A stretch of 64,000 nt of DNA from Halocatena pleomorpha (GTDB lineage Archaea; Halobacteriota; Halobacteria; Halobacteriales; Haloarculaceae). The position numbers and the translations under genes were made by a program. The notes under the pieces are model-generated. The model did not search any database. It saw only the letters and a program-made list of their open reading frames with translations, and was not told the origin of the DNA. Below, piece after piece: positions 18,962 to 30,056 of this stretch. Positions within the stretch are counted from its first letter, which is position 1; every line of letters begins with the position of its first letter. The DNA lies in NCBI RefSeq assembly GCF_003862495.1, contig NZ_RRCH01000022.1:1-64000 (forward strand). The letters run 5' to 3'.

Positions 18962-19039
18962 ATGGAACGATATCTGCGACGACGATCACGATGGGTGTGT
19001 CGAACGTGCCCTGACACCCCGAGGAGGTGGGCGCTGTGA
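18962..19039 (+). CDS. 25-residue CxxC peptide before the DR2241 gene
   Basis: The frame MERYLRRRSRWVCRTC... encodes 25 residues, very basic, with one CRTC motif. A TATA-like TATTTA at 18932-18937 is centred 27 bases before its ATG, the spacing of a leaderless gene, and the stop TGA overlaps the probable GTG start of the DR2241 gene (GTGA at 19036-19039). Those two points argue that it is translated. It may be a peptide or simply a coupling device. Not recognised as any family. Confidence 0.4.
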   Translation: MERYLRRRSRWVCRTCPDTPRRWAL

Positions 19040-20148
19040 CGATCCCTCAGTCCCACGTCGCGGCACTCCGGGACGCGGCCGAGTCCGGCGTCTCCTTCGA
19101 CGGTCTCTCGGTCACTGTCGATGACGAAACCTACACGTTTGCCACTCCTGACGAGCGTCATACCGGATTGAGTGCTGCCGACCTTGCCGACATCGCAGCG
19201 GCCAACGACGCGTACGTCACCAACTGGCATTACTGGACGCGGATCGATCGCACGGACAGCGAACAGGAGTTTCTTCGATGGCTCGAACACGCCGACGAGC
19301 TGGCTGTCCCAGAGCGGTACGACAGCTTATCAGAGGACGGACTCACCCGCCTGTGGGGAGAGCTTTCCATCACGACGACGCTCGATGCGGGTAAGAACGA
19401 GGATGGGGATGGAGACCAGCGCCGGTATTCGATCCGTCACGAGGACGATATAGGGGCGGATCACGCGGAGCTCGCGGTGTACCACGACCCGCTTGACGCG
19501 CGTGAGGTCGCAAAACACGACGACGATGGACGTTATCGGCCGCTCAAAACCGCACCCACGCTCCAGACAGGCTGGGCGTTCACTGACCTGAATGGCCGTG
19601 CGTTGCTCCGAACGATCGATTTCCTCTATCCGGCGACGGTTCACAACTGGTATCTCGAACGACACGAGAACCTCGACGTGTCGCACTGGCGAGAGACGGC
19701 ACAGCGACAGACAGGGATCTACGATCTCATCGAGGAACTCGACGGTGAACAGCTCGAATGGCTTACCGAAGCGTGTTGTGTGGATTCACAGTGTCTCAAG
19801 CGCCGCCAGTGGGACGAATCCGCTGACGAACCGCTTGACACACCCCGTGGTGATGGCGTGTTCCCGTGTCGGGAGCCGTGTTCGCTCGTCATTGCTGTCG
19901 CTCGAAAGCTGACGCTGCTCGAACGGGAACAGACGCACGAATACACGTTCGAACTCACCCCGAGCGAGAAAGAACAGCTCGAAACGCTCATCGACACCGT
20001 TGCGGACGGCCACACCGAGGAGATCCGGGAAGCCGACGCCGACAACGGTGCGAACAGATACCGCGCCAGATATCTCCGCGCAAAACGCTTCGACGAACAC
20101 GGACAGCTCTCGGGAGCACCGACACCGGACGCCGACACTGAAAACTGA
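19036..20148 (+). CDS. DR2241-family Fe-S protein of the CbiX locus
   Basis: 370 residues. The N-terminal part is a soluble alpha/beta region; the C-terminal third contains ACCVDSQC (near 250) and FPCREPC (near 280), a set of cysteines that matches the 4Fe-4S domain of the DR2241 family. The family is linked to CbiX cobalt chelatases by fusion and adjacency. Exact role is unproven; electron transfer or chelatase support is plausible. The start GTG 19036 lies 7 bases after GAGGAGGT; GTG 19027 is an alternative inside that Shine-Dalgarno sequence. Confidence 0.8.
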   Translation: MTIPQSHVAALRDAAESGVSFDGLSVTVDDETYTFATPDERHTGLSAADLADIAAANDAYVTNWHYWTRIDRTDSEQEFLRWLEHADELAVPERYDSLSEDGLTRLWGELSITTTLDAGKNEDGDGDQRRYSIRHEDDIGADHAELAVYHDPLDAREVAKHDDDGRYRPLKTAPTLQTGWAFTDLNGRALLRTIDFLYPATVHNWYLERHENLDVSHWRETAQRQTGIYDLIEELDGEQLEWLTEACCVDSQCLKRRQWDESADEPLDTPRGDGVFPCREPCSLVIAVARKLTLLEREQTHEYTFELTPSEKEQLETLIDTVADGHTEEIREADADNGANRYRARYLRAKRFDEHGQLSGAPTPDADTEN

Positions 20149-20189: not shown

Positions 20190-20291
20190 TTATTCATGCA
20201 TCACGGTGCCACAGTCGGCGCACATCCAGATGCCATCTGCGTGTGTTTCCTTTATGAGGCTGCTGCCACACTCCGCGCATTCGTGTATCAT
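20190..20291 (-). CDS. 33-residue zinc-ribbon micro-protein
   Basis: Encodes MIHECAECGSSLIKETH followed by a second knuckle MCADCG and a short tail. Two CxxC knuckles 19 residues apart make a compact zinc ribbon like other haloarchaeal zinc-finger micro-proteins. The ATG overlaps the stop of the 55-residue upstream frame (ATGA at 20288-20291), so it should be translationally coupled. Target unknown; nucleic-acid or protein contacts are typical of such ribbons. Confidence 0.6.
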   Translation of the reverse strand: MIHECAECGSSLIKETHADGIWMCADCGTVMHE

Positions 20292-20455
20292 TGTTCGTAG
20301 AGGTGCCGCTTTCGGAGCGGGTGAGGACTCCGAACTGTCTGTTTGAGGAGATCGTACTCCTCCTCTTTGATCTCTGTCAATAACGTTACGTCTCCAGTGT
20401 GAACGTGGATAAATAGCCGTTCATCTGGTCCTTGCAAGACCTCGGCGGTCGTCAT
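20288..20455 (-). CDS. 55-residue hypothetical protein
   Basis: Starts MTTAEVLQGPDERLFIHVHT, with two predicted strands (RLFIHVHT, DVTLLTEI) and a C-terminal helix (EEEYDLLKQTVRSP) ending in a basic tail LRKRHLYEQ. Both ends are coupled by ATGA overlaps: its start overlaps the stop of the 42-residue frame (20452-20455) and its stop overlaps the zinc-ribbon start (20288-20291). Such chaining is hard to explain by chance. Not recognised; no function proposed. Confidence 0.55.
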   Translation of the reverse strand: MTTAEVLQGPDERLFIHVHTGDVTLLTEIKEEEYDLLKQTVRSPHPLRKRHLYEQ

Positions 20456-20580
20456 CTCTCCCCCTCGATTGTCGATTCGTTGCTGTTGTGTTGTAAACTG
20501 GACTCACTGTCCATCATTGGTGTCTCGGTCACATCAGCAGTACTTTGGGTGACATGATCTGATCGGTTATCCAAACACAT
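20452..20580 (-). CDS. 42-residue polar micro-protein, head of the micro-operon
   Basis: Starts MCLDNRSDHVTQSTADVTET and continues as a polar, Ser/Asn/Glu-rich chain. An internal Met-Met (from 20517) could start a 21-residue version. Its stop overlaps the next start as ATGA. A TATA-like GATTTAAGATATTA lies on the minus strand at about 20615-20630. An 11-bp inverted repeat brackets its start. Coding status rests on frame overlap and position only. Confidence 0.4.
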   Translation of the reverse strand: MCLDNRSDHVTQSTADVTETPMMDSESSLQHNSNESTIEGER

Positions 20581-20591
20581 TGCTGATGTGA
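20529..20591. promoter_or_regulatory. 11-bp inverted repeat around the micro-operon start
   Basis: TCACATCAGCA (20529-20539) and TGCTGATGTGA (20581-20591) are perfect reverse complements separated by 41 bases. The right arm ends immediately before the ATG of the 42-residue frame (minus strand). The pair could be two operator half-sites or the stem of a leader hairpin. Confidence 0.5.
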
Positions 20592-20828
20592 TCTGCAACG
20601 ATGTGGTCTAATATCTTAAATCATACAGAAACAGCAATCTCTTCCGCAAAAACGTGTTCGTACCGGTGTTTTCGTCCCGATTGCACCATCGACTGTGGTG
20701 TCCTATCGTGGGAACTCCGTCTTTCACGCGTTGTTTGTTAGTGTTTTGTTACTAGTGGTTGGGTGTTTTTGTTTGTTTTGCTACTTGATCGGTGGTATTG
20801 GTTGAGTGTCGATCCCTGTTGGTAGATC
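20592..20828. other. intergenic, G+T-skewed on the plus strand
   Basis: Between the micro-operon promoter and the distal end of array 1. From about 20726 the plus strand is strongly G+T-rich with few A or C, so an RNA read through from the array on the minus strand would be A+C-rich and little structured. No gene, repeat or tRNA was recognised. Confidence 0.5.
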
Positions 20829-21302
20829 GTTTGGATGCCTTGGTGGGTGTTGGCGCAGTTGAAAGCACTGCTCAAACCCTATGAACGGAGAAACGAACGA
20901 GTTTCAATGCCTGAGTTGCCGCTGGCACAGTTGAAAGAACGCTTCATCCGACCCAAGCAGATAATCACGAATCGTTTCAATGCCTTCGTCGCCGCTGGCA
21001 CAGTTGAAAGGCGCGATCCGCCAGATAATGACGGCGTCCGGCCAATGTTTCAATGCCTTCGTCGCTGCTGGCACAGTTGAAAGAGAGTATTGCCTCGCGG
21101 TTCACCGAGACACCGACAAAGTTTCAATGCCTGAGTTGCCGCTGGCACAGTTGAAAGCCCTTCACAAGATTCGTGACATGAGGCAGGAGTCTCGGTTTCA
21201 ATGCCTGAGTTGCCGCTGGCACAGTTGAAAGGAAATTGAATGCCCCACCAATAGCATCTTGGAAGGTTTCAATGCCTGAGTTGCCGCTGGCACAGTTGAA
21301 AG
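20829..21302 (-). CRISPR. CRISPR array 1 (7 repeats, 6 spacers)
   Basis: 37-base repeats at 20829, 20901, 20974, 21047, 21121, 21195 and 21266; spacers are 34-37 bases. On the minus strand the repeats begin CTTTCAACTG and end ATTGAAAC, the canonical 8-base crRNA handle, so transcription is leftward from the leader at 21303-21411. This agrees with the repeat at 20829-20865 being degenerate, as terminal repeats often are. Two repeat cores alternate (GAGTTG in four, TTCGTCG in two). Predicted stem: TTTCAA/TTGAAA plus TGCC/GGCA. Confidence 0.96.
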
Positions 21303-21411
21303 AGGGGGTGAAAATCCGTGGAGCGATCCAATAAAGCTTTCTCCATCGGTCTCAGCGCCACCTCTCTTCGTGGACCCCCCCTGTACACGGACTTTATAAA
21401 GGTCCACGAAG
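21303..21411 (-). promoter_or_regulatory. CRISPR leader 1
   Basis: This 109-bp flank is almost identical to the one after array 2. Read on the minus strand it contains TATA box TTTATAAA (21393-21400), about 90 bases before the first repeat. A perfect 11-bp inverted repeat, CTTCGTGGACC (21366-21376) and GGTCCACGAAG (21401-21411), surrounds the core promoter. The repeat-proximal part (AGGGGGTGAAAATCCGTGG from 21303) is the most conserved. Confidence 0.85.
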
Positions 21412-21436
21412 GACCAGCAATACTGTCCGGATCCGG

Positions 21437-21676
21437 TCAGACGAGATCGAACTCGACGCCGTCGGTGACTGCTGTGACTACGGCATCGCACAGCTGGCAG
21501 TCCGGAGCACTCACGATCTCCTCGCCTGCCGTCTCGACGCCGATGCGAAGCGAGGTCTCACAGCCACACGCCGGACATTCGTCGGTTTTGGCCCAGCAGT
21601 AGCGCAGGATCGTCTCTTCGATGTCATTCTTGAGCACGTCGGTACCTTCAAGGTCGTTTGGATCAGAATCGAACAT
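21437..21676 (-). CDS. 79-residue zinc-ribbon protein between the CRISPR arrays
   Basis: The acidic N-terminal helix region (MFDSDPNDLEGTDVLKNDIE) is followed by CPACGC and CQLC, a four- or five-cysteine zinc ribbon, and a strand-rich end. ATG 21676 is chosen; the longer frame begins inside a hairpin-forming stretch. It is read in the same direction as the csm operon and both arrays. Not recognised; it may be a bystander or an accessory of the CRISPR locus. Confidence 0.6.
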   Translation of the reverse strand: MFDSDPNDLEGTDVLKNDIEETILRYCWAKTDECPACGCETSLRIGVETAGEEIVSAPDCQLCDAVVTAVTDGVEFDLV

Positions 21677-22023: not shown

Positions 22024-22204
22024 GTTTCAATGCCTTCGTCGCCGCTGGCACAGTTGAAAGATCCCGCTCATCGGGTGGTACTTCCGCGAAGAAGGGTTTC
22101 AATGCCTTCGTCACCGCTGGCACAGTTGAAAGCCACGAGTTGATGGCTCCTAACGGACTACATATCCGTTTCAATGCCTTCGTCACCGCTGGCACAGTTG
22201 AAAG
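22024..22204 (-). CRISPR. CRISPR array 2 (3 repeats, 2 spacers)
   Basis: Repeats of 37 bases at 22024, 22096 and 22168 with two 35-base spacers. Cores read TTCGTCGCC in the first and TTCGTCACC in the other two. The end sequences, handle and predicted stem equal those of array 1. Leader 2 lies at the right end, so it is also read on the minus strand, directly downstream of csm5. Confidence 0.95.
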
Positions 22205-22312
22205 AGGGGGTGAAAATCCGTGGAGCGATCCAATAAAGCTTTCTCCATCGGTCTCATCGACCGTCCTCTTCGTGGACCCCCCTGTACACGGACTTTATAA
22301 AGGTCCACGAAG
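22205..22312 (-). promoter_or_regulatory. CRISPR leader 2, overlapping the csm5 stop
   Basis: Nearly identical to leader 1 apart from a divergent block of about ten bases near 22256-22266. TATA box TTTATAAA at 22294-22301; inverted repeat CTTCGTGGACC (22268-22278) with GGTCCACGAAG (22302-22312). The csm5 stop codon (22295-22297) is part of this TATA box, so csm transcripts run into the leader and array. Confidence 0.85.
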
Positions 22313-23428
22313 CGAGGCCTCGATCCAGCCGAGGGGAGCGTAGGGTGAACCATTACGGAGAACGAATTCCCGCGTTTTCGGGAATCGAACGACATTCTCA
22401 AAATTCGGTACGATATCACCTTCAGAGCAACGTGAGCAGAACAGACGACTGGTAGATCGCCTATCCTTTCGCAGCGATCCTCCACAGTCAGCGTGTTTTA
22501 ATCCGGCCTCAATGTTCGCGTTGATCCGCTTCGTTTCCGAAAGCGCCAGTGAGACGGTTTTCGAGTGGTGGCCGGTCCCGAAGCCGATTCGGAAGAACGG
22601 GCCAGTGGTGGGAAGCGTCGAATAAAACTCTACGATACCCTCCGTGTCGATCAACCGCTGGTCTTCGCGTCTGACCACCGCCTGAAACTGTTCGAGAGCA
22701 GCCGAGATTGTCGCTAACATTCCCTCCTCCGAGAGGTCATCCCCGAACACTGCTCGGGCCGTGGCTGTTGCCGATTCCCTATCGACCAACCGGTTCAGCA
22801 GCGGGGCATCCACGAGGATTTCGGTCGTGAGTTCCGTACCATCAACGAGACACTCCGCGTAGTTCGACCAGTGTTTCTTTCGTAACGTTCCAGATCGCTG
22901 TAACGAGTACGTTTTGGTCTCACAGAGGGCCAGTCGGTCGGTTGAGACAGGCTCCGTGTCTCGAACGGTCACACACCGCAATAGATCGTGTCGTGGGCCT
23001 TCGTCACCCACTCGAAAGTGCTCCTCAACTGAATTCCCATCGGTCCGGTTGAGGTGACTTCCATTGGTGAGCAGCCGGTAGGCGAGCGCTGTTCTAATCC
23101 ATCCCTTGAGACTCGTGCCGGGAATGTACGGTGAACCAGTTCCATCTTTGATTGCGACTGAGACCTGACTGTTTCCGATTGAACCAGAGGAAACCCACGA
23201 GGAGAGTGTATACCGCGAATATTGACCCGTATGATCGAAAAACTCGCCTACTGGAGCGCCCCGCTCCATTGCGGCGACGAACGCCTGAATCTCGTCTGGA
23301 TGCTCCCTGAAGTACGCATCTAGGTCCGGAACAGATGCTTGATCCTCATCGAACAGATATTCGTGCTTGTTTAGGGTTGTACCGGATCCGATGTGTGTCG
23401 GGGACCGTATCTTCAGATCCACCTTCAT
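22295..23428 (-). CDS. csm5: type III-A CRISPR effector subunit Csm5
   Basis: 377-residue RAMP protein capping the 3'-crRNA end of the Csm complex. It starts with VDLKIRSPTHIGSGTTL, typical of Csm5, and contains PYIPGTSLKGWIRTALAY (near 98), the conserved RAMP glycine-rich loop. The C-terminal part has an unusual cysteine set (HADCGG then FCSRC, near 312-335) that may bind zinc. The start overlaps the csm4 stop by 4 bases (ATGA). The last codons overlap the outer inverted-repeat arm and TATA of leader 2. Confidence 0.92.
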   Translation of the reverse strand: MKVDLKIRSPTHIGSGTTLNKHEYLFDEDQASVPDLDAYFREHPDEIQAFVAAMERGAPVGEFFDHTGQYSRYTLSSWVSSGSIGNSQVSVAIKDGTGSPYIPGTSLKGWIRTALAYRLLTNGSHLNRTDGNSVEEHFRVGDEGPRHDLLRCVTVRDTEPVSTDRLALCETKTYSLQRSGTLRKKHWSNYAECLVDGTELTTEILVDAPLLNRLVDRESATATARAVFGDDLSEEGMLATISAALEQFQAVVRREDQRLIDTEGIVEFYSTLPTTGPFFRIGFGTGHHSKTVSLALSETKRINANIEAGLKHADCGGSLRKDRRSTSRLFCSRCSEGDIVPNFENVVRFPKTREFVLRNGSPYAPLGWIEASLRGPL

Positions 23429-24495
23429 TTCGTCTCACCGGCGGAAGGAGACGCTGTTTGTGGAGTGATTCCAACGGGGAGCGAGTACCCGTACTGTTGG
23501 ACTCCATGCTCGAAATGATCGGCAACGATGGGGTTGTAGCCATACGGTTCCTCGCGGTGTTCCCCGTCCGTTTTCTCGAATCTCCGGTCGACGGCCGTTT
23601 GTCGAGGTAAGATGGATCCCTCAGAAAGAGCAAGCACGCGCTTTTTCCAAATTGTGTCGGGGGATGCAAGTGAATTCTCGATGACGCCTTTCCGTGGCTC
23701 GATCTCATAATAACCGTTCGTCAAAAACGGTTCCAACTCCTCTGGGTGGGGTATACAGAGTGACAATGTACAAAAGAAGTCACCGTCCGGCTGTGGAAGA
23801 TCAAACGATCTGACCCCGTCGAGACGGAACTGACCGTGTCCCACCGACCGATCGCCACCAATCCCACGATCTTGGGCCACGGAGAGACCATCGAGGACGA
23901 GATCGATATCACCCTCGACACAGACATGCAGCCCAGCAACATCCGAGAAGAACACGGCGTCTCGGTGATAAAGGGAACTGTCCGTTGCCATTGTCAACCG
24001 GTTGACAGCGTTACGCGTCCGTTCTGTTCTCCAGATTGGTTTTCGGTCCGATTCAGCTGGCAGCAGAAAGCGCCGATCGTGGACGTACTGACGCCCTCCG
24101 ACTGTGATAGTTCCATTCTCATCAAAACCGGCCAGCAGCTCACTATCTGAGACCGTTCCAGCAGCGATCATCGAAAAGACCGATGCAGGAACGTATTCGA
24201 TCTGTTGCCACACGTCCAGCGCTTCGAGACGCTCATCGGTCATCTCCCCAACTCCGGCGGACAGCATGGGGAGTCGCGGTGTCGCCAGCAGATACTCACG
24301 GTCATCCCTATCGAGCAGCGGAAACGCGGACGAGATACGAAACGGCGGACGATCCGCTTGGAACTGCGCCAGAACGTCTTCGAGACACTCAGTCCCCCGT
24401 ACATCGCGGATCCCCCAGCAGATCGCCCCGAACAGCGTATCAGAGCGCGGTATCTCGCTGAATGGTCCGTCTGGTGAGAGCAATACCGATTCCAT
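23425..24495 (-). CDS. csm4: type III-A CRISPR effector subunit Csm4
   Basis: 356-residue RAMP (Cas5-like) protein that holds the crRNA 5' handle and contacts Cas10. N-terminal SDTLFGAICWGIRDV, central NAVNRLTMATDSSLYHRDAVFF and the glycine-rich GIGGDRSVGHGQFRL (near 235) are the standard Csm4 motifs. It starts three bases after the csm3 stop and overlaps csm5 by 4 bases. No truncation seen. Confidence 0.93.
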   Translation of the reverse strand: MESVLLSPDGPFSEIPRSDTLFGAICWGIRDVRGTECLEDVLAQFQADRPPFRISSAFPLLDRDDREYLLATPRLPMLSAGVGEMTDERLEALDVWQQIEYVPASVFSMIAAGTVSDSELLAGFDENGTITVGGRQYVHDRRFLLPAESDRKPIWRTERTRNAVNRLTMATDSSLYHRDAVFFSDVAGLHVCVEGDIDLVLDGLSVAQDRGIGGDRSVGHGQFRLDGVRSFDLPQPDGDFFCTLSLCIPHPEELEPFLTNGYYEIEPRKGVIENSLASPDTIWKKRVLALSEGSILPRQTAVDRRFEKTDGEHREEPYGYNPIVADHFEHGVQQYGYSLPVGITPQTASPSAGETK

Positions 24496-24498
24496 TGT

Positions 24499-25236
24499 TC
24501 ACTTGATCTCGAGGATCTCTCTCACTTCGTCGAGCGTGTCGACCGATCTACCTTCCTGGTTCCCTGTGCGGTACCCGTCGGTGGTCCGGACCACGTACTC
24601 ATCGTGGTGAAATGTGACCTTCCCGTAGCCACGCGAGCCGTTCCCCCCGAGTGATGAGCCTTCTAACAGGAACAATGCCCGCTCGATCGCGTTGAGATTG
24701 TCTGAATCATGGCGGCCACCATCATCGAGATCGTAGACGCCATAGACGAGCTCGTAGCTGAACTCGGACCCCCTTGGAACCCGCTCGTTGCTTCGAGGCT
24801 TCGCCTCTGTAGTCACTCGATTGATTGTGTTCTCCGTCTTAACTTCCGTGTACGGAAGTGCTGTATCCAACTGCCGCCATCGTTCGATCGTTTCCTCCGT
24901 GGGAAACGCGTCTCGAACCGAGAGACGACTCGGACCGGTTAGTGCCTCCGTCTCTGCAGTAGTACCAAATATTCGACAAATAGGGCATGTAACGGCATCT
25001 TCTCCCTCACAGACGTGTGGTTCGCCGTCATCCTCAATCATCCCTGCATCCCACTCCAACAGCGAACGCAGTTTTCCTTTGATCGACGATCCAGGTATGT
25101 AGGGATGTCCCGTGGTGGGACTTTTAACGATCGGTCCGTCAACCCCACCGATCTCCAAGGATCCTTCATCACCGATATGCAGTCCAGTCTGGCACTCAAG
25201 AACGCCATTGAATACCACGTGACCGAGCAGTTCCAT
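24499..25236 (-). CDS. csm3: type III-A backbone and target-RNA nuclease Csm3
   Basis: 245-residue Cas7-like RAMP that polymerises along the crRNA and cuts target RNA at 6-base intervals. The expected catalytic aspartate is present as Asp33 in LEIGGVDGP, followed by HPYIPGSSIKGKLRSLLE. A zinc-knuckle-like HVCEGEDAVTCPICRIFG lies near 74-91, and the glycine-rich GGNGSRGYGKV near 200. The csm2 stop and csm3 start share one base. Confidence 0.95.
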   Translation of the reverse strand: MELLGHVVFNGVLECQTGLHIGDEGSLEIGGVDGPIVKSPTTGHPYIPGSSIKGKLRSLLEWDAGMIEDDGEPHVCEGEDAVTCPICRIFGTTAETEALTGPSRLSVRDAFPTEETIERWRQLDTALPYTEVKTENTINRVTTEAKPRSNERVPRGSEFSYELVYGVYDLDDGGRHDSDNLNAIERALFLLEGSSLGGNGSRGYGKVTFHHDEYVVRTTDGYRTGNQEGRSVDTLDEVREILEIK

Positions 25237-25610
25237 CAGTTCTCCACCCCGACCTCAGTATAATACGAGTGATACGCGACTGTTGCTTCCATGATTCGAA
25301 AGAATATCTCCATATCTTCGTCACTACAATCTCCAACAACCAAATCCATGAATCTAGATATTTCATCCTTTACGTCTTGCATTTCTTCCTTCCGTGCAGC
25401 TGCATACGCTAGGTGTGGTTTGATGAGAAACAGTGTTTGCTTAGCCTGTTCTGTATCATCCTCAAACTTGAACTCGTTTTCTGCTCGTTTGATCTCTCCA
25501 AACACTTTTCGTAATTGGCTCGTGCTGACGTCGTTTTCAGCGAATCTTTTTCCGAGTCGCTCTCCTGTATTGTCTATCTTCCTGACTTGTTCTGGTGTTA
25601 GTGTTGTCAT
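25236..25610 (-). CDS. csm2: type III-A small subunit Csm2
   Basis: 124 residues, all-helical and charged, starting MTTLTPEQVRKID and containing SQLRKVFGEIKRAE and LIKPHLAYAAARK, which match the Csm2 pattern. It forms the inner filament of the complex, contacting target RNA. Six bases after the cas10 stop. Base composition here and in parts of cas10 and csx1 is more AT-rich than in the housekeeping genes. Confidence 0.9.
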   Translation of the reverse strand: MTTLTPEQVRKIDNTGERLGKRFAENDVSTSQLRKVFGEIKRAENEFKFEDDTEQAKQTLFLIKPHLAYAAARKEEMQDVKDEISRFMDLVVGDCSDEDMEIFFRIMEATVAYHSYYTEVGVEN

Positions 25611-25616
25611 AATGAA

Positions 25617-28052
25617 TCACCGTGTTGCAAGTGCTGTCCATGTCACTGGTACTGAAATCCACGGAAGCGCTGGTGGGATCTTCTCGTCCAACTCATTCAT
25701 CGCTTTTTTAGAAGCATTTCTAGATAGAAGATATTTTATCTCCCATTCCTTCTCTACGCCAATATGTGTCCTGTTTGACTCCGTGTTTTTGGCTCGTTGT
25801 TCGACACTATCGGCAATATTGATGAGGGAATACACGAAGGAATTTGATATTTGTTCGATATGAATAAGATATTCGAATTGACAACCGAGATCGATCAGAT
25901 CTAACATACTGGGATCGCCATCGCTGACCCAGCTCTGTGTCTCTCCGAACAGCCACGCGGCGTTTTTCTCCTGTGCGCCTTCCGAGAACGCCTTGGCGGC
26001 GTCGAGTCGCTCTTCTGCGTGTTCGATCGCCCGTCCGATCGGATATTTCGGTTTCATTCGGTAGAACCCCCCACTGATGGTGAGCGTCTCCGAGCAGTAC
26101 GCCGCTAACTGCGCTCGGATCTCGCGCCCGAAATCGACTGCCTCGTCCCACGGTCCGACGAAAAACAGATCGTCACCACCCGAGAAGCCGATGTAGATCG
26201 GTGGAATGCGCTCGACACACTCCTCGTGAGGCAACTTTTGTTTGTCGATCAATCGATAGTAGGACGCCTCATCTGGTTCGCATTCATGCCGGTGTTCGAC
26301 CGTCCGCTCGTCCAGCTCTTCGAGTTGTTCTTGACACGCCGAACACGCGTCATCAGCGTGCACGTAGGAACATTCCTTGGCGAGTGTATTGAGGTATCCC
26401 TCGAAGAACAGCGACAGCGTTCGCCCGATCGCACCGAGCCGGGCCGGGCCGTGATCCATCGCTGACGAGATCGTCCGCCCGAGATCGTCGATATCCATCT
26501 TCACTACGTGGTTGAACGCCTCCTCACCCCTGGCGAGTTGGGCTTGTTCAGGGAACGACCAGACGCGACTGATGCCACCATCATAGGGCACGGTCTTCCC
26601 GGTGAGGACGAACCCCCAAGGGTCGATTGAGTCAGGGCGCTCGGCCAAGTTCACCGAATACACCCGATCGGCCGTCCCGGCTGTAGAGGCGAACTGCCAG
26701 CAGACGGGACCATCAGACAGCTCCCGGCCGAACTGGAACTGATCGTCGTCCGTATCGTCCGGATCGGACTCGAATTCGAGTCGGAGAAACTTTGATTCGG
26801 GGAGCTTCTTGCCGATCGCTTCCTGTGTTTCACACTCCTGACACCGGTCTTCGCCGGGAGGTTTGTCGCCGCCACAGATCTGACACGGTTCGAATCGGGG
26901 TTCGTCGTTCCACTCGTCGATAATGGGTGTTTCATACTCCGACGCGATCGATTTCCCCTTTCTGAGCTTTCGCCTGTCGCTGTCGCGTGCCACGTGCTCG
27001 AACAGTCTCGAAAACGAGTCTGCCGAGCCGTCCGCGTGGGCGCAACCCACAACGAAGCTGAGTTCTCCTGCGAACCGTTCGAACAGTTCGGTATTGATTC
27101 CTCGCTCAAACTCTGCCAACCGCTCTGAGACGGTGCTGGTCCCTTCCGTCTCGATGGGTGGCACGACCGCGTAGAACTGCCCGCCGCCGCTCCAGACCAC
27201 GCTCGTGCTCGGAAGTCCCATCTGCTCCAGAAACAGCGTGCTGAGGCTCTCAGTGAGCAGCCACAGCTGGGTGCTCCGGCCGCGCATTCGCTTGGCGATG
27301 TTGTCCTGAGCGTCATCGGCGTTTTTCACCCGGTGGAGGAATGACTGGATTCCTGAGAGATCGCCTTTCACAAGCGTGAAACACGATCTCTTCTCGTCTC
27401 TGTTCGTACTCTCCGTTTCGTTCGCAATCGCTCGGATATCGCCGGTTTCGAGATCGGATCGGTGGAGTGCAACGCCGATAGCGGCCGTCGTGCGCAGGTG
27501 ATCGTACAGCGGGAGTGTGGGCGTATCGGGAAACGCCGGGACACACCATGTGTACTTTTCGAGGAGGTGTACGAGCGTCTCGTAGCTGTCCCCTTTCTCG
27601 ACCGCATCGGTGAGTCCGTTCCACAGCTGTTCGTACCCAGATTCGGCCGTCTGGGAGTGATCTCCAGCGTTTTTCGGAAACAGCGTCTCCCGATCGATGG
27701 CCAGCCCCGAGAGTGGATACGTGTCCCTGATCTCATCCTCAGAAACGGCGTTGAACACGCTCTGAAGCCGGATCGGCTCCTCGTCCGTGGCGGCTCTCCC
27801 ATGATCCGACGCGAGCTGACTCGCTGCCCGTACTACAAGCGCCTTCCGCCGAACCTCTGCAGAGATGTTCTGTGGGATCGAATCGGTGTGGTGCAGTTCA
27901 ACCAGCTCAGCTGCTCGTTCGTCACCGATCCGTTCTCGGAGGAACGTCACCGTCTGCTCAACGTGATCGAGACCGGGGGTAGTCCGGCTTCGAAGCCGCC
28001 CGATCTCACTGAACAAACACGCCAGCTGGTAGGAGGGTACCGACTCCGTCAT
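25617..28052 (-). CDS. cas10: Cas10/Csm1, type III-A signal-generating subunit
   Basis: 811 residues. Two palm domains: the first with KGDLSGIQSFL (near 229) and GGGQFYAVVP (near 289), the second with MDIDDLG (519-525) and the intact GGDD cyclase motif at 625-628, so cyclic oligoadenylate synthesis is expected on target binding. A zinc ribbon CQIC/CQEC lies at 390-407. An extra Cys-rich insert (C561, C570, C573, C591, C612) sits just before GGDD. The N-terminal HD nuclease motif is missing: the site reads LFSEIGRL where active homologues have LLHDIGK. DNase activity by that domain is therefore unlikely. Confidence 0.95.
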   Translation of the reverse strand: MTESVPSYQLACLFSEIGRLRSRTTPGLDHVEQTVTFLRERIGDERAAELVELHHTDSIPQNISAEVRRKALVVRAASQLASDHGRAATDEEPIRLQSVFNAVSEDEIRDTYPLSGLAIDRETLFPKNAGDHSQTAESGYEQLWNGLTDAVEKGDSYETLVHLLEKYTWCVPAFPDTPTLPLYDHLRTTAAIGVALHRSDLETGDIRAIANETESTNRDEKRSCFTLVKGDLSGIQSFLHRVKNADDAQDNIAKRMRGRSTQLWLLTESLSTLFLEQMGLPSTSVVWSGGGQFYAVVPPIETEGTSTVSERLAEFERGINTELFERFAGELSFVVGCAHADGSADSFSRLFEHVARDSDRRKLRKGKSIASEYETPIIDEWNDEPRFEPCQICGGDKPPGEDRCQECETQEAIGKKLPESKFLRLEFESDPDDTDDDQFQFGRELSDGPVCWQFASTAGTADRVYSVNLAERPDSIDPWGFVLTGKTVPYDGGISRVWSFPEQAQLARGEEAFNHVVKMDIDDLGRTISSAMDHGPARLGAIGRTLSLFFEGYLNTLAKECSYVHADDACSACQEQLEELDERTVEHRHECEPDEASYYRLIDKQKLPHEECVERIPPIYIGFSGGDDLFFVGPWDEAVDFGREIRAQLAAYCSETLTISGGFYRMKPKYPIGRAIEHAEERLDAAKAFSEGAQEKNAAWLFGETQSWVSDGDPSMLDLIDLGCQFEYLIHIEQISNSFVYSLINIADSVEQRAKNTESNRTHIGVEKEWEIKYLLSRNASKKAMNELDEKIPPALPWISVPVTWTALATR

Positions 28053-29269
28053 ATGATCTCCGACCAGTATTCGTCGTCATCGATCTTTTCGCAGAGTTCG
28101 AGAACAGTGTTGTAGATCATGTCCTCCGAACGAATATCATCCGCCTTAAATCCGGAATGCGCATACCAATTTCGATAATCCTTAATTTCTTGCCATAGAT
28201 TAATGGCGGCTATGTCGTCTATATTTTTCTCTTCTTGTTTCTTTGCCTTTGCATTGATCATCCTCGATGCGCACTCTCTGTTATTTCGATCAATCCACTC
28301 ATCGAGACCGATCCCTACTGTGAGCATGAAGCGGTTGATGAACAATTCCCTCGCGCAGCCGAGTGCGAGCCGGTACCGATCGTACTCTGCGTAAAACTCG
28401 ACGAGCTCCCGCTGTCGATCGATCTCGTCCATATCGAGTGCGATATCAGTATAATCATCGACAGCATCAACGGAAAATCGGTTAAGCCGCTCTGAAAGTG
28501 GATGCAAAAATCGTTCTTCAGGTCCGATAAGATCACTGTTGTCGATCTCTTGTATTGTGGCAAGAGCATCCTGAGCGGCTTTTCCTGCTCTGAGTGGTAT
28601 CCCAGAGTCAAAATATCGGCTCGTTCCGTTGAGCTTTTTTACTAACTCTTCGAGAGCCTTAGAATTATCTGCATCTTCATCACGACACAACGCCACCTTT
28701 CGCTCCTTGAGAAGTCCGTGGACTGATCGAAGCTCTCCCGTTCGTTCGAACGTATTGATTGCGTGATACCACTCCATGAGTGTATGCAGATGGGTCATAT
28801 CAATGACTGGCGTCACCTCACTTTCTGACTGAAATTCGCTGTAGTAGATTCCACCAATTTCAACGTTAGAAAGCGCATTCAGGTGGAGCACGGCGGCGAA
28901 AAATACCATCGGAAGCGAGCGAAAGCCGAATGTGATATCCAAAACAACCTGTTCATGATCGTGTTCCCGAATGAGTTCAATCAGTTCTCCAACTCGGGCA
29001 TCGATTTCGGTTCGATTTTCCGCGACTGCGATCGTCTCGAATTCACACGGAACATCGATTTTCTCAAATGCCTCATTGAGTGCGTCGTCGTTTTTGGACG
29101 CTTTCTCAGTCCTCGCGATGAGTGCACGATCGATCTCCACCAGTTCAGCGAGTGCGACCGGACTGAACTTCGTTTCATAACTCTCACCATCGAGCACGTA
29201 ACTCGTCTTCTTGTACCTGCTTTGATCTCCCGTCCCCATACTAGAGACGAGGAGTGTTTCTTCACGCAT
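28049..29269 (-). CDS. csx1: CARF-HEPN CRISPR ancillary RNase (Csx1/TM1812 family)
   Basis: 406 residues. The N-terminal CARF domain begins LLVSSMGTGD and carries DITFGFRSLP (111-120), the characteristic TM1812-family motif; a C-terminal HEPN domain has the RNase motif RNWYAH (R366 to H371, R-x4-H). Cyclic oligoadenylate made by Cas10 should bind CARF and activate RNA cleavage. First gene of the csm operon; its stop overlaps the cas10 start by 4 bases. The transcript is almost leaderless from the shared divergent promoter. Confidence 0.92.
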   Translation of the reverse strand: MREETLLVSSMGTGDQSRYKKTSYVLDGESYETKFSPVALAELVEIDRALIARTEKASKNDDALNEAFEKIDVPCEFETIAVAENRTEIDARVGELIELIREHDHEQVVLDITFGFRSLPMVFFAAVLHLNALSNVEIGGIYYSEFQSESEVTPVIDMTHLHTLMEWYHAINTFERTGELRSVHGLLKERKVALCRDEDADNSKALEELVKKLNGTSRYFDSGIPLRAGKAAQDALATIQEIDNSDLIGPEERFLHPLSERLNRFSVDAVDDYTDIALDMDEIDRQRELVEFYAEYDRYRLALGCARELFINRFMLTVGIGLDEWIDRNNRECASRMINAKAKKQEEKNIDDIAAINLWQEIKDYRNWYAHSGFKADDIRSEDMIYNTVLELCEKIDDDEYWSEII

Positions 29270-29293
29270 GAGTGACCGATCAAAGGTCGATAC

Positions 29294-29304
29294 AGTTAAT
29301 AAAT
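29294..29304. promoter_or_regulatory. shared AT-rich core promoter of csx1-csm and cas6
   Basis: A single AT element (TTAATAAAT at 29296-29304) is the only TATA-like stretch between the divergent starts. It is about 25 bases from the cas6 ATG and about 31 from the csx1 ATG, both right for TBP-directed starts at or just before the codon. One element may serve both directions. Confidence 0.55.
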
Positions 29305-29324
29305 CCTGTGACTCACGTTACGTC

Positions 29325-30056
29325 ATGCGTTGTCTCGTGAAGCTCCGATCGACCCAACGACAATCGTACACCTCTGCCTACCACATCAAGCTTCAAGGCC
29401 TTCTCTACCAGATTCTCGCTGAAGCGGGATACGAATTCGTCCACGAAGAGAATCCATTCAAATTCGTAACCTTTTCGAATATCTTCCCACCGACAGACAT
29501 GAACGAAGGTGATCGACGAACATGGCTTGTCGCCAGCCCCCATGAGCATCTCATCCAGAAGTTCTCGGAGACCATCGCGGACTACGACACCGTTTCGGTC
29601 GGTGAGCACCGGTACGCCGTCGAGTACACGTCGGAGTTCGAGCTCACGCCCGAGGAACACGCTGCCGTCGAAACCGGTACGCCGATCGTGGTACGGATCC
29701 CGGCAGCCCGGTGTGAATCGTACGGGATTGACGCGGAATACGACGACGTGTACTGGCGGTTGGAACATCCCACGGAGGCGTTCCAAGAAGAGATCGAGCA
29801 AAATCTCGCAACGAAATACCGACAGTACTACGACCGTGATCCTCCCGAGCGCCCGTACTTCACCGATCTAGCCCCGAAAAAGGAGGTGGCGATTCCGTTA
29901 CACTACGATGATGGGGTGGTGCAGACGATCGGTACGACGTGGGAGCTACAGTACGACTGTCACACCCGCGCCGAACACCGACTGATGCGTTTGGCGTACA
30001 GCGCCGGACTCGGTGAGTTGAACACGACCGGATTCGGATTCATCAACAACGCGTGA
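29325..30056 (+). CDS. cas6: Cas6 crRNA-processing endoribonuclease
   Basis: 243 residues with tandem ferredoxin-like folds. Candidate catalytic residues are Tyr28, His40 and Lys46 in the order seen in Pyrococcus Cas6, with FKFVTFS following. The C-terminal glycine-rich loop GLGELNTTGFGF (near 228-239) is typical. It should cut within repeats to leave the AUUGAAAC handle. ATG 29325 is chosen because the TATA element is 25 bases upstream; the frame continues upstream into the csx1 start. Divergent from csx1 and convergent with cdc48. Confidence 0.93.
   Translation: MRCLVKLRSTQRQSYTSAYHIKLQGLLYQILAEAGYEFVHEENPFKFVTFSNIFPPTDMNEGDRRTWLVASPHEHLIQKFSETIADYDTVSVGEHRYAVEYTSEFELTPEEHAAVETGTPIVVRIPAARCESYGIDAEYDDVYWRLEHPTEAFQEEIEQNLATKYRQYYDRDPPERPYFTDLAPKKEVAIPLHYDDGVVQTIGTTWELQYDCHTRAEHRLMRLAYSAGLGELNTTGFGFINNA

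Follow-up and report, generated by a model that had tools for sequence, protein, structure and literature searches.

A conserved pair of micro-genes, a predicted beta protein and a zinc ribbon joined by an ATGA overlap, beside a CRISPR array of Halocatena pleomorpha

At the edge of a type III-A CRISPR region in Halocatena pleomorpha, three very short open reading frames follow each other on the minus strand, each joined to the next by an ATGA overlap, and the question arises whether such frames are genes at all and, if so, whether they serve the neighbouring defence system. The stretch of DNA analysed here, called the window throughout, comprises 64,000 nucleotides; an earlier note, made from its letters alone, had described frames of 42, 55 and 33 amino acids (aa), and all three were found where that note had placed them (Table 1). 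The overlaps lie at 20455-20452 (frame 1 and the second frame, ORF2) and at 20291-20288 (ORF2 and the third frame, ORF3), and ORF2 is preceded by a purine-rich, Shine-Dalgarno-like stretch (20456-20466). The motif of ORF3 is CxxC-x15-CxxC, present as CAEC and CADC with a Gly after each.

Table 1. Features of the window around the micro-gene pair, followed by the six kinds of locus (A-F) of the ORF2 family
Feature	Position or loci	Strand	Basis or remark
DR2241/DUF7348 gene, convergent, adjoins CbiX gene	19027-20148	+	Pfam PF18069 2.5e-40, PF18009, PF24039; CbiX PF01903
ORF3, 33-aa stand-alone zinc ribbon, ATGA-coupled to ORF2	20190-20291	-	motif, orthologues, dN/dS, model
ORF2, 55-aa microprotein	20288-20455	-	orthologues, dN/dS, AlphaFold model
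Possible leader frame, 21 codons (ATGATG...TGA), its end overlapping the start of ORF2	20452-20517	-	dN/dS on ~60 nt
Frame 1, 42 aa, not conserved as such	20452-20580	-	ATG TGT TGA in G003, G004, G001
Perfect 11-bp inverted repeat around the frame-1 start, gap 41 nt	arms 20581-20591, 20529-20539	-	sequence
Putative TATA-like box TTTAAGATAT	20611-20620	-	sequence
CRISPR array, 7 repeats, 34-37 nt spacers	20829-21302	-	last (degenerate) repeat 20829-20865; leader 21303-21439
79-aa zinc protein, abuts CRISPR leader	21437-21676	-	separate genus-restricted family
Second CRISPR array	22024-22204		
Type III-A effector genes: csm5, csm4, csm3, csm2, cas10/csm1, CARF (Csx1-like)	22295-29269	-	
cas6 gene	29268-30056	+	
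Group A	5 loci		beta protein and zinc ribbon at ATGA
Group B	G000:C8, G003, G005		70-72 aa, then 31-34 aa zinc ribbon; GTGA or 2-3 nt gap
Group C	G002		tandem pair of beta domains (111-117 aa), followed by 33-aa ribbon at ATGA
Group D	G001:C4, one locus, 85-kb contig		upstream 106-aa frame overlaps; without zinc partner
Group E	G002		reversed order: preceding 81-aa frame, two CxxC motifs, ATGA-joined
Group F	G003		C-like, decayed, ATGA

The ATGA chain by itself does not make these frames genes. With ATGA links between frames of at least 33 aa as the counting rule, the window contains three three-frame chains including this one, in comparison with 1.8 on average and at most 5 among 40 simulated first-order Markov sequences; the chain alone is not beyond chance, and homology decides gene status. 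Orthologues of ORF2 and ORF3 (locus A in the following) were found together in five of the six independent genomes of the genus, namely that of the window (G000), G003, G005, G004 and G001. Seven genomes are counted as six independent ones, because G002 and G006 share contig C1 with the same hit coordinates, and entries of G006 were merged with those of G002 in all counts; G006 is listed at 9% contamination, and the assembly of G002 or G006 may be composite, given the identical C1. Reading frame, gene order and ATGA overlap are kept in all five copies of locus A. In nine of the ten pairs of copies dN/dS amounts to 0.02-0.19 for ORF2 and to 0.11-0.29 for ORF3 (for the latter, the pairs with non-zero dN), and the tenth pair, G004 and G001, differs by two synonymous and no non-synonymous changes in each gene. 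Between the window and G003, ORF2 has acquired 12 synonymous changes and a single non-synonymous one (1, 1 and 11 differences at codon positions 1, 2 and 3), and the ORF3 orthologues are 82-97% identical. Because the frames are conserved and change is mostly synonymous, ORF2 and ORF3 are, on comparison of their sequences, to be regarded as real micro-genes under purifying selection that belong to one unit. That both might be chance open reading frames would agree with the commonness of such chains in this window, but in view of the pattern of substitution we consider it hardly credible.

Of the three micro-genes proposed in the earlier note as short enough to be missed by gene finders, ORF2 and ORF3 thus stand as both short and real (dN/dS below 0.3 wherever defined), whereas frame 1 has to be given up: its aligned start runs into a stop at codon 3 (ATG TGT TGA) in G003, G004 and G001, the other genomes with an intact leader, and over its first 21 codons the differences between the window and G003 are spread evenly across the codon positions (4, 5, 5). 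A two-codon upstream frame was rejected as well, as the window itself reads ATG TGT TTG. All five orthologous loci have an open leader frame from ATGATG (20517) onward, 20-21 codons long with one 3-nt length difference; its substitution rates (dN 0.039 and dS 0.53 between the window and G003, over only 63 nt; dN 0.22 and dS 0.67 between the window and G005) are too noisy, and the frame may encode a leader peptide. In G005 an insertion-sequence-like element, containing a 225-aa frame that we take by eye to be transposase-like, replaces the promoter side of the leader, and both genes are intact (L003 / L022).

The inverted repeat and the TATA-like stretch mentioned in the earlier note are both present. 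The latter is AT-rich and has the counterpart TTTAATATAT in G004 and G001. Ten of the 11 pairs of the inverted repeat are kept in G003, the remaining one as G-U, and only a 6-bp core is left in G004 and G001. Folding of the leader RNA was hardly better than that of shuffled sequences (z -1.2 in the window, -2.0 in G001, -0.7 in G003). A stable leader hairpin was discarded, with window and G003 no better than shuffles and the long stem not predicted in G001; the repeat may be a putative operator or leader hairpin.

For ORF2 a beta-beta-beta-alpha fold is predicted (AlphaFold, mean pLDDT 74.8, pTM 0.56, alignment of 4), with residues 2-40 well predicted and a low-confidence tail. Foldseek searches of the PDB with this model gave nothing at E 0.001 (best E 0.18), while VIA-align reached at best Z 5.5, mostly with small chains of the large ribosomal subunit, presumably eL38, a value within the range of common arrangements. 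The ORF2 profile matched PDB sequences at E 0.08 or worse, and ORF1 and ORF2 had no Pfam, PHROG or NCBIfam match at E 10. A match to the Rfam Ocean-VII RNA inside ORF2 (20341-20383, minus strand; 28 bits, gathering 53.5, E 2.4e-5) was taken as chance, because its GAGGAG...CTCCTC stem, judged by eye, is absent in G004.

That the last frame encodes a zinc ribbon, as had been read from its letters, agrees with the motif and with its best Pfam match, the TFIIB zinc ribbon PF08271 (Zn_Ribbon_TF; E 3.4e-5, 23.8 bits, below the gathering value of 29); in the G004 orthologue this family ranks third only. The ORF3 model (mean pLDDT 80.7) resembles the zinc ribbons of eL43, of an RNA polymerase III subunit and of LysW, none of them significantly (Foldseek best E 0.51), and many eL43 entries are found among its PDB sequence matches. 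In a search of 140 genomes, no ORF3 match outside the genus was stronger than E 1.8e-5; most lay in frames of 320-350 aa or ~95-110 aa, which we read as TFB and eL43. ORF3 shares with the TFB ribbon the CxxC-x15-CxxCG arrangement; unlike TFB, it stays below the gathering value and is without cyclin folds.

How far does the family extend? ORF2 was searched in 145 genomes, in 391 Halobacteria genomes by profile, in the seven genomes of the genus and in 146 genomes of the family. All seven genomes of the genus contain homologues. The profile search of the class matched four of the 391 genomes, all within the genus (one of 86 genera), and in the search of the 146 family genomes the copies of the genus scored E 3e-13 or better, pieces of the decayed copy and some chance matches aside; no convincing match appeared there outside the genus, the best (E 0.004) lying inside an unrelated 393-aa frame. 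A locus in G037 (E 9.7e-4) was dismissed as chance: it is part of an open frame of 388 aa, its listing shows no zinc frame, and it is unmatched in the profile search. The relatives named by a contig scan of 84,980 species are Halobacteriales archaeon YIM A00010, YIM A00013 and Actinarchaeum halophilum YIM 93972. The publication on the latter describes hyphae and spores in YIM 93972 and mycelia in close strains, and reports 61 clade-specific genes (PMC10067837). Judged by these searches, the family is restricted to the genus, which includes filament-forming haloarchaea.

Within the genus the family comprises 12 loci of six kinds (Table 1), and in 11 of the 12 the beta protein is coupled with a zinc-finger frame. 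Upstream of groups B, C and F (L016, L017, L035, L015, L021) a common element, TTTTTGATA, can be found, which is read as a putative basal promoter, or as a common promoter/operator; group B in G000 and group F in G003 have an identical stretch of 16 bp, ATTTTTGATACATCAA.

The surroundings of locus A bear on the question of defence. In the window the order is type III-A set, array, 79-aa zinc protein, leader, array, pair, DR2241 and cbiX, with ~210 bp between the degenerate last repeat and the TATA-like box of the pair, and G003 has the same order. In G004 csm lies upstream of the pair with other genes between them, and no CRISPR-like array was found within 20 kb; near the pair in G005 and G001 there is neither a csm gene nor an array, and matches to the Cas10 profile were short and below cut-off. 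G005 and G001 contain a Cas1 gene elsewhere in the genome and therefore are not CRISPR-free. No Cas10 or Cas1 match was obtained in G002, where locus A is absent beside DR2241 and the latter has other neighbours; in all five copies of locus A, DR2241 adjoins the pair. A full Cas10 accompanies the locus A pair in G000, G003 and G004, and G006 contains Cas10 without locus A, with a csm cluster and arrays at G006:C3 that lack the pair. The locus A pair consequently does not track Cas10/Csm. With at most one mismatch allowed, the 15-base core of the repeat was counted 22 times in G000 and 36 times in G003, grouped at a few sites in either genome; G001 and G004 contain no copy. Since G000, G003 and G004 agree in the side on which csm lies, the order csm-CRISPR-pair is probably ancestral; the simplest history, drawn without a tree, would be an ancestral csm-pair neighbourhood from which csm was lost twice and in which the pair was retained.

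An accessory role in defence, which the earlier note had thought possible, finds no support in this distribution. A factor of the type III-A system modulating crRNA production, expression or interference would be in line with the possibly ancestral neighbourhood, with the short distance between array end and TATA-like box and with the decayed paralogue F inside a CRISPR array of G003, but G001 and G005 carry the pair without Cas10 above cut-off, the repeat core has no hit in G001 and G004, the csm cluster at G006:C3 does without the pair, the constant neighbour is DR2241, and groups B, C, D and E are without CRISPR-like arrays in their 18-20 kb, so that we regard such a factor as very improbable. 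The CRISPR adjacency of the pair is probably incidental; the link is only weakened, because the order probably is ancestral and paralogue F sits inside an array. Copy F (L026, G003:C1 ~2292560-2293140), made up of two beta domains and a zinc ribbon with a frameshift, is flanked by repeats that lie 529 bp from each other, and a tRNA-T-arm-like stretch adjoins it; with locus A of the window near an array, two of the six kinds thus touch arrays. The better CRISPR-linked candidate is the 79-aa zinc protein. Its family matches six of 96 family genomes at E 1e-4, all within the genus; a CRISPR repeat lies within 1.5 kb at eight of 17 loci (one G006 duplicate left out), and the CRISPR leader starts at the stop codon in four of the 17 (loci noted: that of the window, L128, L129, L134, L135, L138, L140, L143 and L130). 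It is conceivable, if rather doubtful, that the genus has tied small zinc-finger proteins to its CRISPR loci, and that the 79-aa family as well as the pair act on leader/array transcription or array maintenance, the pair being freed where csm was lost.

Among known systems, the C(P)XCG microproteins of haloarchaea, such as HVO_0758 and HVO_2753, are the class closest to ORF3. They share with it a size below 70 aa, two CxxC motifs and a probable regulatory role, and ORF3 conforms to the class in size and motif (33 aa, two CxxCG) as well as in coding potential and conservation, with zinc binding predicted; in contrast to them, ORF3 has a coupled beta partner and scores 17.4 bits against the HVO_0758 family NF041912, far below the curated cut-off of 70. 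Zinc-finger microproteins of Haloferax volcanii gave phenotypes in 12 of 16 deletion mutants (PMC6562870), and five of 14 C(P)XCG microproteins were zinc-free (PMC11241148). By analogy, Brz of Halobacterium salinarum provides the closest working model for the pair: compared by description, both are cases of a small zinc-finger protein beside other genes with plausible local control of transcription. Brz regulates its neighbour bop, directly upstream of which it lies in the same orientation (PMC2253796), whereas DR2241, the constant neighbour of the pair, is convergent. The 4-nt ATGA overlap also resembles that of coupled overlapping pairs (termination-reinitiation) in H. volcanii; short overlaps there are described as tightly coupled, and as especially frequent between genes for subunits of heteromeric complexes (PMC10666635), whereas for ORF2/ORF3 coupling is predicted from the overlap.

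We tentatively favour, with a confidence somewhat short of even, the reading that ORF2 and ORF3 are a translationally coupled micro-gene unit whose products form a hetero-complex acting as a small regulator, with an incidental CRISPR adjacency. Beta protein and zinc finger are coupled in 11 of 12 loci, and a hetero-complex is therefore the most plausible reading rather than an established fact; the beta protein of group D, which is without a zinc partner, speaks against it. Both genes would be co-transcribed from a promoter near 20611-20620, and ORF3 would be translated by reinitiation at the overlap, as its sequence and the Haloferax work suggest, so that the two products may arise in a fixed ratio and assemble. 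The zinc ribbon, by family resemblance to those of TFB, RNA polymerase subunits and eL43, might contact nucleic acid or the surface of RNA polymerase or the ribosome, and the beta-beta-beta-alpha partner might contribute dimerisation or specificity. A regulatory function, in the manner of Brz, is suggested by analogy; at locus A, expression may be further controlled through the long leader, the short upstream frame and the inverted repeat.

Two other readings have to be weighed against a coupled regulator. The pair could bind the ribosome or RNA polymerase, for instance as a hibernation or initiation factor, with a ribbon like those of eL43, TFB or Rpb12 and a partner like eL38; the ORF3 matches outside the genus, in frames read as TFB and eL43, its best Pfam family, the many eL43 entries and the alignment of the ORF2 model with chains read as eL38 all point that way, but every one of these scores is below significance or common to zinc ribbons at large, and the other zinc partners tested have different best Pfam families, which leaves this reading unlikely. 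Distinctly less probable still appears a mini-module of toxin-antitoxin-like or selfish nature, one that would multiply as paralogues and settle where insertion is tolerated, for instance in CRISPR arrays. The 12 loci with their six kinds, the scattered paralogues and the decayed copy inside an array would be expected of such a module, as would the coupled two-gene layout and the location of group D on an 85-kb contig; on the other hand, loci A and B keep their synteny from species to species, the flanks of the different kinds share no gene family, and no phage match better than E 0.3 was found. That match, in a tail connector protein, was taken as chance, and a viral or plasmid origin was rejected, with no relatives of ORF2 and three paralogues in four scans of viral contigs and none in plasmids.

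In the open-access literature searched, no description of the pair was found; zinc-finger microproteins themselves are already known, and new here is such a protein with a coupled beta partner. The locus illustrates how, with synteny and co-occurrence as criteria, a micro-gene that adjoins a CRISPR array can be told apart from the defence system. To the class of zinc-finger microproteins, the functions of which are nearly all unknown, it adds a conserved family of microproteins, putatively with two subunits, that is restricted to a genus with hyphae- and spore-forming haloarchaea.
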